DNA from: Castellaniella defragrans
Lineage (GTDB): Bacteria; Pseudomonadota; Gammaproteobacteria; Burkholderiales; Burkholderiaceae_B
Length of the DNA stretch: 64,000 nt
Direction of reading: 5' to 3'
NCBI RefSeq assembly: GCF_014203015.1
Contig: NZ_JACHIB010000001.1
Span: forward strand, 186,001-250,000
The position numbers and the translations under genes are program-made. Under the pieces are notes generated by a model. The model was not told the origin of the DNA. It saw only the letters and a program-made list of their open reading frames with translations, and searched no databases. Shown here piece after piece: positions 3,788 through 50,000 of this stretch. Numbering within the stretch: position 1 is the stretch's first letter; each line of letters starts with the position of its first letter.

Positions 3788-4822
3788 ATGAACGACACGA
3801 CCGATTCCCGCCCGCTCGAACTGCTGCCGGTCGAGGCCCGCAGCGCCCACCGCGACGTCGGCCGCGCCCTGGGGCGCTGGGGGGCCGAAGCCTGTCACCG
3901 CCACCTGGTCCGCTCGGACGCCTGGGCGCAGGTCATGGCCTGCCGCGACCGGCCGGAAGTCCCGGCCATGCGCGCGCTGCTGCGCCAGGCCTTTCCCTGG
4001 ATCGAGGACGAACTGGCGGGCCTGGCCGAGGGCCTGGACCTGCCGCCCGACGAGGTCTTCCTGTGGAACTGCCGCGGCGACCTCTGGGCGCTGGCGCCCG
4101 ACGGCTGCACCACGGTGCTGGCGCCGCGGCGCCTGAGCCACAACGAGGACGGCGACCCGGGCTTCGCCGGCGCCTGCGGCCTGGCCGAAGTGCGGCCGGC
4201 CGGCGCCCCCGCCTTCGCGTCCTTCGTCTATCCGGGCTCGCTGCCCGGCCATACCTTCGCCGTCAACGAAGCCGGCCTGGCGATGACGGTCAACAACATC
4301 CGCGCCCGCCGGGCCGCGGCGGGCATGCCGCGCATGGTCCTGACCCGCGCCCTGCTGGCCGCCGGCTCGGTGGGGGAAGCGGTGTCGATCCTGCAGGCGC
4401 ATGGCCGCATGGGGGCGTTCCACCTGGGCCTGGGACAGGCCGGCGAATCACAGACCTGGAGCGTGGAATTCAGCCAGGCGGCCGTGTCCGTCCGCCCCGT
4501 GGCCCGCGCGCCGCTGCTGCACGCCAACCATGCCGTGCACCAGGCGCAGGAAGACCTGCCGCAGGTGATCACCGCCTCGTCGGCGCGCCGCCAGGCGCGC
4601 GGCGAAGCCCTGCTGGCGCAGGGCGCGGACGCGCTGGCGATCCTGGCCGACACGGGCGACGCCGCCGAGCCCATCCTGCGGCGGTCGCCCGACGACACCG
4701 ACCAGGAAAACACCCTGGCCACCGCCGACATCGACCTGAACGGAAACACGGCCCGCTGGGCCGTGTATGCCCCCGGCGCGGCCGAACCGCATCACCGCTT
4801 CGAGGGATTGGACAGGACATAG
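3788..4822 (+). CDS. Peptidase C45 / acyl-CoA:6-aminopenicillanic acid acyltransferase-like protein
   Basis: This 344-residue Ntn-hydrolase resembles the C45 family, which is made as a precursor and cleaves itself before a nucleophilic cysteine. The expected Gly106-Cys107 junction is present in DGCTTV, followed by the FAVNEAGLAMTVNNI stretch typical of the fold. Family members hydrolyse or form amide bonds of acylated amines and small peptides. No signal peptide is seen, so action is cytoplasmic. It follows the RpiR-like gene with a 95-bp gap. The last codons and the stop coincide with the left part of a hairpin repeat, so its C-terminus is partly specified by that element. Confidence 0.82.
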   Translation: MNDTTDSRPLELLPVEARSAHRDVGRALGRWGAEACHRHLVRSDAWAQVMACRDRPEVPAMRALLRQAFPWIEDELAGLAEGLDLPPDEVFLWNCRGDLWALAPDGCTTVLAPRRLSHNEDGDPGFAGACGLAEVRPAGAPAFASFVYPGSLPGHTFAVNEAGLAMTVNNIRARRAAAGMPRMVLTRALLAAGSVGEAVSILQAHGRMGAFHLGLGQAGESQTWSVEFSQAAVSVRPVARAPLLHANHAVHQAQEDLPQVITASSARRQARGEALLAQGADALAILADTGDAAEPILRRSPDDTDQENTLATADIDLNGNTARWAVYAPGAAEPHHRFEGLDRT

Positions 4823-4890
4823 GTCAGTCCCTGCGGACTGACCTATGCCTGGAAAATCCGGGCCGCTTGCAAGCGGCGAGGCGGGGGGAT
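4805..4890 (+). repeat. Bipartite hairpin element, family 1, copy A
   Basis: Lower stem 4813-4816 pairs with 4848-4851. A4817 is bulged. The 13-bp upper stem 4818-4830/4835-4847 is perfect, with tetraloop CTGC. A second hairpin is the perfect palindrome GCCGCTTGCAAGCGGC at 4862-4877. The element begins inside the last codons of the C45 gene and encloses its stop codon. It is the most diverged copy in sequence but has the same structure. A termination or 3'-end protection role is possible. Confidence 0.8.
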
Positions 4891-21922: not shown

Positions 21923-22024
21923 GGATGAGTCCGGACACGGGGCAGTCCCTGCGGACTGCCTCGTGCCGGACGAATCGGAGCGGCATGCAAGCCGCGAGGT
22001 GGATAGATGCCACGGCTGGAGATG
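21923..22024 (+). repeat. Bipartite hairpin element, family 1, copy C
   Basis: This is the best-formed copy. Lower stem 21931-21934 pairs with 21966-21969. A21935 is bulged. The upper stem 21936-21948/21953-21965 is 13 bp with one G-T pair, loop CTGC. The second hairpin GCGGC-ATGCAA-GCCGC is at about 21980-21995, followed by GAGGTGGATAGATGCCACGG. It is located between the NUDIX gene and the cox promoter. Confidence 0.9.
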
Positions 22025-22110
22025 CCTCCAAGCCTGACGAATCTGCGAATCCTCGCACGGCGGAGATTGGTGGAAACCCGGAAAAGCCGGCGGGCGGAGC
22101 ACGGCCCAGC

Positions 22111-25486: not shown

Positions 25487-26362
25487 ATGACCACCGCCCA
25501 CACGGCCCACGCCGGCGAGGCCCCCTACTATTACGTCCCGCCGGATTCGGTCCACCCGATCCGGGCCAGCCTGTGCATGCTGGCCACCCTGGTCGGCGCG
25601 GCCCTGTGGGTCAACAGCTACGCGATCGGCCCCTGGCTCTGCCTGATCGGCATCCTGAGCCTGTTCGTGGTGCTCTACGGCTGGTTCGGCGACGCCATCC
25701 GCGAATCCGAAGGCGGCCTGAACAGCCAGCGCATCGACCACTCCTACCGCTGGAGCATGACCTGGTTCATCTTTTCCGAGGTCATGTTCTTTTCGGCCTT
25801 CTTCGGCTCGCTGTGGTACACCCGCGAGGTCACCACGCCGTGGCTGAGCACGCTGGACACCCAGACCCTGCTGTGGCCGGGCTTCAGCGGCGCCTGGCCG
25901 AACCAGGGGCCGGCCGGCACCATCGCGCCCTTCCAGACCGTGGGACCGTTCTGGCTGCCCACCATCAACACCGCGCTGCTGCTGTCCTCCGGCGTCACCC
26001 TGACCATCGCCCACCACGCCCTGCGCGCGGCGCACCGCTCCAAGGCGATCTTCTGGCTGGCCCTGACGGTGATCCTGGGCTTCGCCTTCGTCGCCTGCCA
26101 GGCCTACGAATACCACCACGCCTACACCGAACTGAACCTGCGCTTCACCTCGGGCGCCTACGGCGCGCTGTTCTACATGCTGACCGGCTTCCACGGCTTC
26201 CACGTGATCCTGGGCGCCACCATGCTGACCGTGATCTGGCTGCGGCTGGTGCGCGGGCACTTCACCGCCGAGCACCATTTCGGCTTCGAGGGCGCCGCCT
26301 GGTACTGGCACTTCGTGGACGTGGTCTGGCTGGGCCTGTACATCTTCGTGTACTGGCTGTAG
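25487..26362 (+). CDS. coxC: Cytochrome c oxidase subunit III
   Basis: The 291-residue, seven-helix subunit III contains WSMTWFIFSEVMFFSAFFGS, FHGFHVILGA and EGAAWYWHFVDVVWL, all characteristic. It stabilises subunit I and supports proton uptake. AGGAGAG precedes the ATG. It closes the structural part of the operon. A convergent family 1 hairpin element follows within about 30 bp. Confidence 0.97.
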   Translation: MTTAHTAHAGEAPYYYVPPDSVHPIRASLCMLATLVGAALWVNSYAIGPWLCLIGILSLFVVLYGWFGDAIRESEGGLNSQRIDHSYRWSMTWFIFSEVMFFSAFFGSLWYTREVTTPWLSTLDTQTLLWPGFSGAWPNQGPAGTIAPFQTVGPFWLPTINTALLLSSGVTLTIAHHALRAAHRSKAIFWLALTVILGFAFVACQAYEYHHAYTELNLRFTSGAYGALFYMLTGFHGFHVILGATMLTVIWLRLVRGHFTAEHHFGFEGAAWYWHFVDVVWLGLYIFVYWL

Positions 26363-26393: not shown

Positions 26394-26491
26394 GTCAGCC
26401 GAAGCCGCTCTTCACCTCGCGGCTCGCAAGCCGCTCGGAGTCACCCGGCGCGGGGCGGTCCGCAGGGACTGCCCCGCGTCCGGGTTCATCC
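26394..26491 (-). repeat. Bipartite hairpin element, family 1, copy D
   Basis: Read on the minus strand: lower stem CCGG/CCGG, bulged A, 13-bp upper stem CGCGGGGCAGTCC with one A-C mismatch, loop CTGC, then GCGGC-TTGCGA-GCCGC and GAGGTGAAGAG. Its first six bases, GGATGA, supply the stop codon of the DUF2909 gene. It sits between convergent coxC and DUF2909 genes, so it may act as a shared terminator. Confidence 0.85.
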
Positions 26492-26692
26492 CACCCGCAG
26501 CCCCGTCGCATTGATCCAGCCCAGGGCATGCGCCAGCAGCAGAAAGAGAAACAGCAGGATCGACAATCCCACCCGCCACGTCAGGGCCCAGGCCATCCGG
26601 TCCGTGCGCCCCCGGTCCTGCATGAGATACTTCAGGGCCGACCCCAGGCTGACCAGCACTCCCAGGAACAGCACGACGATCACGATTTTCAT
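26486..26692 (-). CDS. DUF2909 family twin-transmembrane protein
   Basis: This 68-residue protein has two membrane helices (MKIVIVVLFLGVLVSLGSAL and WRVGLSILLFLFLLLAHAL) joined by a charged loop (QDRGRTDRM). It is a widespread betaproteobacterial gene found between coxC and surf1 on the opposite strand. The function is unknown, but its position suggests a link to oxidase biogenesis. Its stop lies at the edge of hairpin element D. Confidence 0.85.
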   Translation of the reverse strand: MKIVIVVLFLGVLVSLGSALKYLMQDRGRTDRMAWALTWRVGLSILLFLFLLLAHALGWINATGLRVG

Positions 26693-47729: not shown

Positions 47730-50000
47730 TCAGGCGGCGAGCGGGGGTTCGTCCGGCATGCGGCGGGCGTTCCAGGTGCGCAGGCCGATGCGCATGCGCT
47801 CGACGGCCAGCCCCAGCGCCCAGGCCACGGCCACGGCCGCGAGCATGGCGGAAAGATCCCCGGCTTCGGCAGGCACGGCATATCTCCAGCGATCGCAGCT
47901 CTCCACCTCGCGGCCGGCATGCCGCTCCGATTCGATAGGCATGCCATGGCCCGCGGGGACCATGGCATGTCCGATCTCATCCAGGCTGATCACCGGGATC
48001 TGGACGCCGCCTTCGGACAGCACCGCCATGCCCCCGTACACGGACACGGCGCGGCCGCCGCGCTCCACGTGGGCGCGCAGGGCCTCCCCGTCGGGGTCCA
48101 GCCCGTAGAACAGCACGGCGCCGTCGCACAGCGGCGCCAGTTCCGCCGCGAGGGGGTCGTCCGCGTTCAGGACGGCCGCGCCGGCCGGCAGGACGACGTC
48201 CACCTGGGTGCGGAAGATCCGCGCGAGCTGATCCGGCGTCTCCATGTAGAACTCGGGCCAGGTCGCGGCCGGATCGATGCCGGTGACCACGCCGACCTGG
48301 CAGCGGTCGTAGGCCAGGCCCTCGCCCAGGATGGCGCGGCCGCCGTTCTCGATCACGGCGTATTCGACCGCGCGGTTCAGCAGGACGCGGCGCGCGGCCT
48401 CCCAGTGGGCGGAATCCTGCGCCGTCACCCGGGTCGCGCCCATGAACAGCCCCTCGGACGAGGCCAGGCCGACCACCCGGCCGGTCAGGCGCAGCAGGTG
48501 CGCGACCAGGTGCGCGACCGGCGCGGTGGGCCGGCTGCCGCTGATCCCGATCACCGGGATGCGCCCGTCCTCGGACGCGGGAAACAGATCGTCGATGATG
48601 GCGCGGCCCACCGGCCGGGGCGTGCCCACGGCCGGCTTCAGGTGCATCAGCAGGCCGGGGCCGGCGTTGACCTCGACGATGGCCGCCTGCTGCCCGGCCA
48701 GGGGCCGGGAAATGTCGCGCGCCACCAGGTCCACCCCGGCGATGTCCAGCCCGACCACGCGGGCGGCCAGCGCCACCTGCTCGGCCACGTCGGGATGCAC
48801 CTCGTCGGTGACGTCGATGGAGACGTTGCCGCTGCGCTGCACGAGCACCGCGCGGCCGCGCTCGGGCACGGCGTCGCCGTGCAGGCCCTGGCGCTCCAGC
48901 TCCAGGCGGGCCGCCGAGTCCAGGCGGATGAAGTTCAGGGGATGGTCCTCGTCGCGGCCGCGGCGCGGGTCGGAATTGAGCTGGCTCTCGATCAGCTGCA
49001 GCACGGTGGACGTGCCGTCGCCCACCACCATCGCGGCCTCGCCGCGCGCGGCGGCCACCACGCGGCCGCCCACCACCAGCAGGCGGTGCTCGTCGCCGTG
49101 GATGAAGCGCTCGACCATGACGCCGCTGCCCTCGTCCACCGCCACGGCATAGGCGGCCTCGATCTGCTCGCGCGTGTTCAGGCAGGTGAAGACGCCGCGC
49201 CCGTGGTTGCCGTCCGAGGGCTTGACCACCACCGGCAGGCTCAGCTCCTGCGCCACCGTCCAGGCGTCGGCGGCGCTGTCCACCAGGCGGCCCTCGGGCA
49301 CCGGCACGCCGCAGGCCTGCAGCAGCCGGCGGGTCAGGTCCTTGTCGCGCGAGATGCCTTCGGCGATGGCGCTGGTGCGGCTGGTCTCCGCCGTCCAGAT
49401 GCGCCGCTGGCGGGCGCCGTAGCCCAGCTGCAGCAGATTGGCGTCGCTCAGGCGGATCGCCGGGATGTCGCGGTCGTCGGCCGCGTCCACGATGCACGCC
49501 GTGCTGGGTCCCAGGCTCAGGGATTCGGCCAGGTCCTTCAGCCGCTCGACCGCCCCGGCCACATCGAAGGGCCGGTCCTCGATGGCGGCCATCACCAGGT
49601 CGCGCGCCGCGTGCAGCGCCTCGCGCGTCAGCGGCTCGTGCCAGGCGCGCACGATCACCTTGTAGACGCCGCGCAGCGGCGTTTCCCGCGCGCGCCCCAG
49701 CCCGCCCGGCATGCCGGCCAGGCTCTGCAGTTCCAGCGTGACGTGCTCCAGGATGTGGGCCGGCCAGGTGCCCTCGCGCACCCGCTTGAGGAAGCCGCCG
49801 CGCTCGCCCACGCTGCAGCGGTGCTCGACCAGGGTCGGCAGCCAGGCGCTCAGGCGTTCGTAGAAACCGGGGATGAGATTGGACGGGCAGTCCTCGAGAT
49901 CGTGGATGTCCACCAGCGCCTCGATGACGGGCCGGTAGGCCCAGATGTTCGGCCCCCGCAAATGCACCATATTGAGAAACTCAATATTTCTACCGTTCAT
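47730..50000 (-). CDS. Second cyanophycin synthetase-like protein (CphA2/CphA' type), with an in-frame repeat insertion
   Basis: The 756-residue paralogue shares the N-terminal and ATP-grasp domains of CphA (VVVKPSDGNHGRGV, VEVNAGPGLLMHL). Its Mur-ligase P-loop is degenerate: GISGSRPTA near residues 485-493 replaces GTNGKTTT. The protein stops about 120 residues early, without the Mur C-terminal domain. CphA2 proteins of this shape are known to polymerise beta-Asp-Arg dipeptides, or to assist CphA; either is possible. Residues about 674-707 are encoded by a family 1 hairpin element in frame, at the place where homologues have a short loop. A small hairpin lies just after the start codon. Confidence 0.9.
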   Translation of the reverse strand: MNGRNIEFLNMVHLRGPNIWAYRPVIEALVDIHDLEDCPSNLIPGFYERLSAWLPTLVEHRCSVGERGGFLKRVREGTWPAHILEHVTLELQSLAGMPGGLGRARETPLRGVYKVIVRAWHEPLTREALHAARDLVMAAIEDRPFDVAGAVERLKDLAESLSLGPSTACIVDAADDRDIPAIRLSDANLLQLGYGARQRRIWTAETSRTSAIAEGISRDKDLTRRLLQACGVPVPEGRLVDSAADAWTVAQELSLPVVVKPSDGNHGRGVFTCLNTREQIEAAYAVAVDEGSGVMVERFIHGDEHRLLVVGGRVVAAARGEAAMVVGDGTSTVLQLIESQLNSDPRRGRDEDHPLNFIRLDSAARLELERQGLHGDAVPERGRAVLVQRSGNVSIDVTDEVHPDVAEQVALAARVVGLDIAGVDLVARDISRPLAGQQAAIVEVNAGPGLLMHLKPAVGTPRPVGRAIIDDLFPASEDGRIPVIGISGSRPTAPVAHLVAHLLRLTGRVVGLASSEGLFMGATRVTAQDSAHWEAARRVLLNRAVEYAVIENGGRAILGEGLAYDRCQVGVVTGIDPAATWPEFYMETPDQLARIFRTQVDVVLPAGAAVLNADDPLAAELAPLCDGAVLFYGLDPDGEALRAHVERGGRAVSVYGGMAVLSEGGVQIPVISLDEIGHAMVPAGHGMPIESERHAGREVESCDRWRYAVPAEAGDLSAMLAAVAVAWALGLAVERMRIGLRTWNARRMPDEPPLAA
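47881..47982 (-). repeat. Bipartite hairpin element, family 1, copy E, inside a coding sequence
   Basis: Minus-strand structure: bulged A, 13-bp upper stem CATGCCATGGTCC with one wobble pair, loop CCGC, then GCGGC-ATGCCG-GCCGC and GAGGTGGAGAGCTGCGATCGCTGGAGAT-like tail, split here only for description. The 102 bp are 34 codons with no stop, inserted into the second cyanophycin synthetase gene. Confidence 0.88.
49969..49987. other. Perfect inverted repeat at the start of the second synthetase gene
   Basis: ATATTGAG-AAA-CTCAATAT forms an 8-bp, AT-rich hairpin beginning 13 nt after the start codon, in a genome of very high GC. It could affect translation initiation or bind a protein. Confidence 0.45.

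Follow-up and report, generated by a model that had tools for sequence, protein, structure and literature searches.

A dispersed repeat of two unlike hairpins in Castellaniella and other genera of its family, probably a non-autonomous mobile element of the REP/MITE kind

Our analysis of a 64,000-nucleotide stretch of a Castellaniella genome (the window) and of related genomes describes a repeat of about 80 bases, or about 105 including a right extension seen in copies of the genus, which we read, with a probability of roughly two in three, as a non-autonomous mobile element akin to REPs and MITEs and so far without a name, whose two hairpins differ from each other and keep a fixed order. Its behaviour resembles that of REPs and MITEs, yet it fails defining features of both where these were tested. 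This reading draws upon the conservation of the fold, the dispersal of the repeat and its presence or absence at orthologous sites.

An earlier note on the window had claimed five copies with a common architecture, which was borne out, as all five were located by R1, a covariance model built from 27 copies of the repeat:

4805-4886, + strand: copy A, 87.5 bits
18790-18871, + strand: copy B, intergenic, 98 bits
21923-22004, + strand: copy C, intergenic, 105 bits
26410-26491, - strand: copy D, 95.3 bits
47901-47982, - strand: copy E, 90.6 bits

The positions first given for the plus-strand copies stand, and those for the minus-strand copies (26394 and 47881) lie 16 and 20 bases below the low ends placed by R1. 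Copy A overlaps the 3' end of a gene of the acyl-CoA:6-APA acyltransferase family (3788-4822, +; PF03417), the last codons and stop codon of which (TAG, 4820-4822) were seen by eye to come from the copy. Copy C is in a divergent gap and is flanked by a NUDIX gene (-) and a cox2 gene (+), both assigned by Pfam. The TGA of copy D (26486-26488) is the stop codon of a small gene (26486-26692, -) predicted by a home-made gene finder and convergent with cox3 (25487-26362, +), and copy E forms an in-frame part of a predicted gene (47730-49970, -) with a cyanophycin-synthetase-like product (PF18921). Four distant relatives of cox3 were separately observed within 24 kb of one contig (G000:C22:9580-33540).

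The columns of a gap-free alignment of 28 copies (A2), which was made by MAFFT and not fitted to the fold, run in the order GGAT; GA; six stem positions; an unpaired A; 13 stem positions; a four-base loop; the return strands; GA; ATC(C/G); GA; hairpin 2, with five pairs and a loop that is mostly NTGCAN; GA; and (G/C)GTGGA. In copy C the parts lie as follows:

21929-21971, + strand: hairpin 1, with 6 + 13 positions, a bulged A at 21935 and the loop CTGC at 21949-21952
21927-21973, + strand: GA/GA under hairpin 1, 21927-21928 opposite 21972-21973, in near-invariant columns
21976-21999, + strand: hairpin 2, with its stem at 21980-21984/21991-21995
21978-21979/21996-21997, + strand: GA/GA closure of hairpin 2, as under hairpin 1
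21976-21977/21998-21999, + strand: lower stem of hairpin 2, the inner pair here being G facing G
22005-22030, + strand: right extension of many copies of the genus, an AGATGCC-rich box seen by eye, its right end not fixed

The bulged A, the 13-position upper stem, the CTGC loop (CCGC in copy E) and the strand swap in the second hairpin of copy A are all as originally described; the lower stem below the bulged A also exists, although it has six positions rather than the four claimed, some of them unpaired in some copies. Beneath these six positions follow a GA/GA mismatch pair and then GGAT/ATCC, and the opposed GA steps are near-invariant below both hairpins. GGAT/ATCC shows little variation and 11 of the 28 copies lack its outermost pair, so that it is without covariation support. 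Two further alignments were used, one of 60 distinct matches from the own genome (A5) and one of 62 distinct copies from other genera, outside the training set of R1 (A6), and the bulged A is an A in 62/62 rows of A6 and 52/60 rows of A5. Columns 10/47 of hairpin 1, mostly C facing T, were seen to be unpaired in 55 of the 62 copies in A6. The loop of hairpin 1 differs by lineage, being CTGC in most copies here, mostly ATTGC in genus g2 (L182-L185, L187-L194) and CTTGA in four copies of genus g16 (L171, L172, L175, L176). The AGATGCC-rich box that follows many copies in the genus measures some 17-26 bases by eye and also occurs as spacers in arrays. No terminal inverted repeats were seen by eye, the left end (TGAGNCYGG) and the right end (GCGAGGT(GGA)) not being inverted repeats of each other.

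Folding of copies A to D was stronger than that of shuffled sequences both as RNA (z -4.2 to -7.1) and as DNA (z -4.3 to -7.0), and the fold of copy E was weak (z -2.8 as RNA, -1.2 as DNA). In A2, 93.4 % of cells were paired, changes on both sides were found in 15 of 28 pairs, and the covariation score was 0.297 compared to 0.108 when shuffled, with 0 of 500 shuffles as high and a score of at most 0.062 for slid versions of the fold; the number of further pair types showed no excess over shuffles (241/500). Covariation persisted among the other-genera copies of A6, which had not been used for the model (94.7 % paired, double changes in 16/28 pairs, score 0.278 against 0.101 shuffled), and in A5 (94.2 %, 18/26 pairs, 0.417 against 0.140), although the model guided the alignment of A5 and A6, which biases them towards the fold, and the shuffle controls do not remove phylogeny. 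The inner pair of the lower stem of hairpin 2 (columns 54-55 with 76-77) covaries in the own-genome copies, being C-G in 42, G-C in 14 and otherwise in 4, and G-U pairs are present in the A5 and A6 alignments. The earlier note had argued that the fold, not the sequence, is kept. Compensatory changes in three alignments, one of them from other genera, support a fold conserved through compensatory change, be it as DNA or as RNA, in comparisons with shuffles that leave the effect of phylogeny in place.

The repeat is not a product of chance, since its 16-base core has 43 genome-wide matches at no more than one mismatch in the 3.94-Mb genome and the reversed pattern has 0. The claim had been staked on the existence of further copies, and R1 finds at least 120 matches in the genome at E<=0.001, tandem units included, which is a lower bound as 150 of 7638 candidates were scored. 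Nine of the ten genomes of the genus, our own included, have R1 matches at the same threshold. Across the family the repeat was found in 43 of 268 genomes and 15 of 43 genera (R1, E<=1e-8), in a survey with stricter filters that lose weak matches. A further 25 titled genomes gave no R1 match at E<=1e-4 in 24 cases, including Achromobacter kerstersii, Allopusillimonas ginsengisoli and Alcaligenes pakistanensis, and one weak match of 41 bits in Roseateles cellulosilyticus. Copy C had no match in phage and plasmid collections (distant mode, E<=0.01), and one exact pattern of the repeat had none among viral contigs. A covariance model now exists for an unannotated repeat that is seen in 15 of the family's 43 genera.

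Mobility was examined at orthologous sites, which were counted only in relatives of the genus with both flanks found; 'empty' is as judged by R1 (E<=0.01) or by a pattern search, so that decayed copies may be missed. The site of copy A was filled in 0 of 3 relatives (in G002 a different 2-kb stretch without an R1 match lies there), that of copy B in 0 of 7 and that of copy C in 1 of 8 (G002, with one full and two partial units; seven empty), and the site of copy D held a lower-scoring copy in 2 of 9 (60.7 and 52.5 bits; seven empty). The regions compared included no orthologue of the site of copy E. With sites A to D mostly empty in relatives, the repeat is, or was, mobile. At site C the empty sequence reads TTGTAGTGGA directly followed by AGCC in G001 and G006 (TAGA in G005), compared to TTGTAGTGGA followed by TGAG and the rest of the element as far as GAGGTGGA when filled. 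GGA stands on both sides of the element at site C and in an outer repeat of G001 (of the kind described below), the right end of the element not being fixed, a pattern that would suit target duplication as well as HUH-type insertion. The syntenic region of G002 contains an extra copy (L263:9237-9318, +, 101.4 bits) that is not among the five of the window.

The setting of the repeat was determined for 55 copies in the own genome (61 matches less 6 further array units), a well-scoring rather than random sample of the at least 120, with genes called by a home-made codon-usage gene finder. Between tandem genes there were 28 copies, between convergent genes 17 and between divergent genes 4, with 5 inside predicted genes and 1 uncalled. 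The upstream gene ends exactly on the TGA of the element in 22 of the 55 by the gene-finder criterion, and by a second criterion the element gives the upstream stop as GGA-TGA in 23. In other genomes of the genus this stop-codon class takes in 14 of the 28 copies examined, some being orthologues of each other, and in other genera only 3 of 52. The genes concerned include those for ThiS, a RelA/SpoT-like protein, ornithine carbamoyltransferase, phosphoglucose isomerase and polyphosphate kinase.

Orthologous gene ends for 21 stop-codon sites were taken from G001, G002, G006 and G008, and yielded 68 site-genome pairs at 20 sites, of which 19 were filled by pattern, 4 had remnants (2 by R1, 2 by eye) and 45 were empty. 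By hand count the empty relatives end in a Gly codon plus stop in 28 of the 45 pairs and at 15 of 19 sites; insertion after the GG of a terminal Gly codon therefore re-creates Gly-stop. Among the home-made gene calls in the window, 4 of 49 genes have a Gly codon directly before the stop, and the binomial value for the Gly-stop excess is 9e-20 by pairs and 9e-6 by sites, in a test that ignores the shared ancestry of the relatives. The end of the RelA/SpoT-like gene, for example, reads AAG GGA TGA G here, AAG GGT TGA in G006 and AAG GGC TGA in G008. None of the empty relatives ends in Gly at L018, L024, L026 and L285, and lost copies could have left some of the Gly-stop ends behind as scars. Random entry at GG followed by selection would hardly yield 23 of 55 copies at stops, because intergenic GG steps outnumber terminal Gly codons in the window by about 400 to 1 (1572 versus 4). 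A longer target such as GGNTGA, with 18 intergenic occurrences in the window, would narrow the gap, although the sequence at site C departs from it.

Many copies outside the genus are flanked by GCCCCCTTGG, and the element is there followed by CAGCAAGC or similar and then by GCGTGGGGGC and a T-run. This outer sequence is itself a repeat of about 75-85 bases that is also found empty, in tandem beside filled units. At L229, an empty unit with CTTGGGGGGA joined directly to AGCAAGCC lies beside a filled one in which the element, from TGAG to GAGGTGGA, stands between CTTGGGGGGA and AGCAAGCC, and at L244 tandem outer repeats are filled, filled and empty. By a strict pattern, outer-repeat flanks surround 22 of the 52 copies taken from other genera, compared with 5 of the 55 in the own genome and 2 of the 28 in other genomes of the genus. 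The filled outer repeat at L183 folds with an outer stem and a U-run (z -5.9), and is the single locus behind an intact terminator fold; a stretch with the empty outer repeat folds no better than shuffles (z +1.1). The inner hairpin of the outer repeat is variable (GCCCGCATAGCGGGC, GCGCGCAAAGCGCGC, GCCGAAGGC) and seems, by eye, to covary (L227:1487-1666 in G098; L247). The Achromobacter kerstersii genome has 14 strict matches to the outer-repeat pattern and no R1 match.

One genome, G098, which we take to be B. pertussis, partly for its IS481 gene, has two outer-repeat units 83 bases apart beside its lexA gene, without the two hairpins, and an IS481-type transposase gene at a greater distance on the opposite side. 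The strict pattern finds 5 outer repeats in G098, whereas R1 gave 0 matches at E<=0.01 among the 150 of 6342 candidates scored, and a scan of three G098 loci, which include three of those five repeats, and of two stretches gave a best R1 match of 13 bits (E 0.17). Hot et al. (2011; PMC3110155) describe 8 BREs in B. pertussis Tohama I, two of them between BP1793 and lexA, and an 80-nt transcript from a BRE of this organism. The outer repeat is very probably this BRE, since the tandem pair beside lexA in G098 has the layout published for locus 3.

A mobile repeat could account for these settings in the following way. The element would enter at GG or GGA and, as it itself ends in GG(A), would come to have GGA on both sides. 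A trans-acting enzyme, either lost from this genome or unrecognised in it, would recognise the element in folded, single-stranded form, in the manner of HUH/Y1 transposases, and would insert it 3' of GG(A). Purifying selection, probably in combination with a target preference, would leave copies at terminal Gly codons, within terminator-like loops and at other intergenic positions. A copy at a gene end would form the first part of the 3' UTR of the transcript, and any protection that its hairpins may give to the mRNA would be a by-product. Taken together, this suggests that the element settles where little harm is done. How small palindromic repeats reach harmless sites is poorly understood, and because filled and empty sites can be compared gene by gene, both at stops and inside a second repeat, target choice becomes directly testable. 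Against the mobile reading stand the Y1 enzyme not found in the genome, a stop-codon niche nearly absent in other genera (3/52), and the location of 5 of the 55 own copies within predicted genes and of 4, including copy C, in divergent gaps.

It is possible, and we propose it tentatively, that the repeat is a tiny mobile element of a new class with insertion tuned to gene ends, entering after the GG of a terminal Gly codon so that GG plus ATGA restores Gly-stop, and using the loop of a terminator-like repeat as a harbour in other genera. If so, tens of housekeeping genes in one genome could bear the element with their proteins almost unchanged.

We consider it unlikely that the repeat is instead a functional RNA module of mRNA 3' ends, such as a stabiliser or a signal for processing or termination, that spread because it was useful and had its fold kept as RNA. 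Such a module would agree with the 23 of 55 own copies that start at a stop codon on the coding strand, with the occurrence of G-U pairs and with the folding of the filled outer repeat at L183 described above. However, the element is patchily present among relatives, predicted genes contain five of the own copies, and the remaining intergenic copies with a neighbouring gene 3' end, outside the 22, show no preference for either strand (10 same, 13 opposite). As for the 80-nt RNA of Hot et al., it belongs to a BRE of B. pertussis, and the element was not found in G098.

The earlier note did not recognise the repeat as a member of a named family, and this judgement holds, as it has no Rfam match at threshold and is separate from the outer repeat that we take for BRE; searches of an open-access library turned up no earlier description. 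Rfam release 15 gave 0 matches at gathering score in the window, and the surroundings of copy C yielded 12 up to E 10, all below thresholds (best 19.2 bits, E 0.12). A hammerhead ribozyme, whose core GGATGA..GAA of the element resembles, was rejected: the element lacks the CU that should precede GA, and the 12 sub-threshold matches include no hammerhead. A SECIS element (UGA then a hairpin) was likewise discarded, with none among the 12 and the genes ordinary.

A place within the REP/REPIN elements of the RAYT system, hairpins with a GTAG-type tag that a Y1 tyrosine transposase mobilises in single-stranded form, is quite improbable. The repeat has the REP-like trait of many dispersed copies with compensatory stem changes, it forms hairpins and occurs in clusters, and the GTAG-1 and GTAG-2 REPs are described as carrying a 3-bp tail and, next to the stem, a GW dinucleotide (PMC3733652). 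Nevertheless, the GTAG/CGTC tetranucleotide is absent beside both hairpins, where the columns read GGATGA, GAATC(C/G)GA and GA(G/C)GTGGA in most copies, a profile search for the Y1 transposase (PF01797) returned 0 matches in the own genome, and the two hairpins are unlike and in direct order. A described REP/BIME family had been named as the finding that would overturn the earlier note, and neither of the two REP tests run, for the tag and for PF01797, pointed to one. PF01797 has matches in 2 of the 10 genomes of the genus, and a RAYT gene may have been lost from this genome. G007, the one of the ten genomes of the genus without an R1 match at E<=0.001, was observed to carry a Y1 transposase gene (L131, G007:C40; PF01797, E 1.4e-43), which by eye adjoins an apparent tnpB gene.

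A passive repeat, in which palindromes amplified by slippage owe their symmetry to hairpin-templated correction, with no selection for the fold, is very unlikely. Hairpin-templated correction could generate compensatory changes, and in 15 of the 21 arrays examined the second unit repeats the 3' part of the first exactly, with varying join points. Even so, three features stay unpaired in most copies from other genera, namely the A bulge, the GA/GA steps and the mismatch of columns 10/47, and copies lie at unlinked orthologous sites. Extra units occur downstream in 13 of 55 loci, and upstream in 1, which is the same array viewed from its second copy. Growth of arrays by 5'-truncated copies was also contemplated and rejected: second units keep the 3' end, but tandem duplication explains that. 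Identity of the element with the BRE of Hot et al. (2011), first suspected from the similar size, bacterial family and tandem habit, is hardly credible, as the lexA pair of 83-bp units in G098 is the outer repeat without the two hairpins and G098 has 0 R1 matches (150 of 6342 scored).

In comparison with known systems, the mobile repeat proposed here has several partial likenesses. The BRE is likewise described as short (75-91 bp), present in Bordetella and other Betaproteobacteria, usually intergenic and in tandem arrays of variable number (PMC3110155), but the repeat that we take for it has another sequence and a C5/G5 outer stem, and the element sits inside some of its copies. The Bor repeats, including Bor-1 of Bordetella (PMC1590033, PMC2267715), are also intergenic stem-loop repeats of the same bacterial family, a comparison made by description only. 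Rickettsia palindromic elements are reported to be read in frame inside genes, as is copy E, although those described are of about 150 bp and form families of their own (PMC10969869), whereas 5 of 55 copies of our element lie inside predicted genes and its main niche is the gene end. The REP super-families with GTAG/CGTC tags are likewise described as dispersed hairpins with complementary stem changes and clusters, and as here, some families occur inside other palindromes and some units inside genes (PMC3733652). The present element lacks the GTAG/CGTC tag and a Y1 transposase, and is set apart from them by its two unlike hairpins with a bulged A and by its niche at the stop codon.
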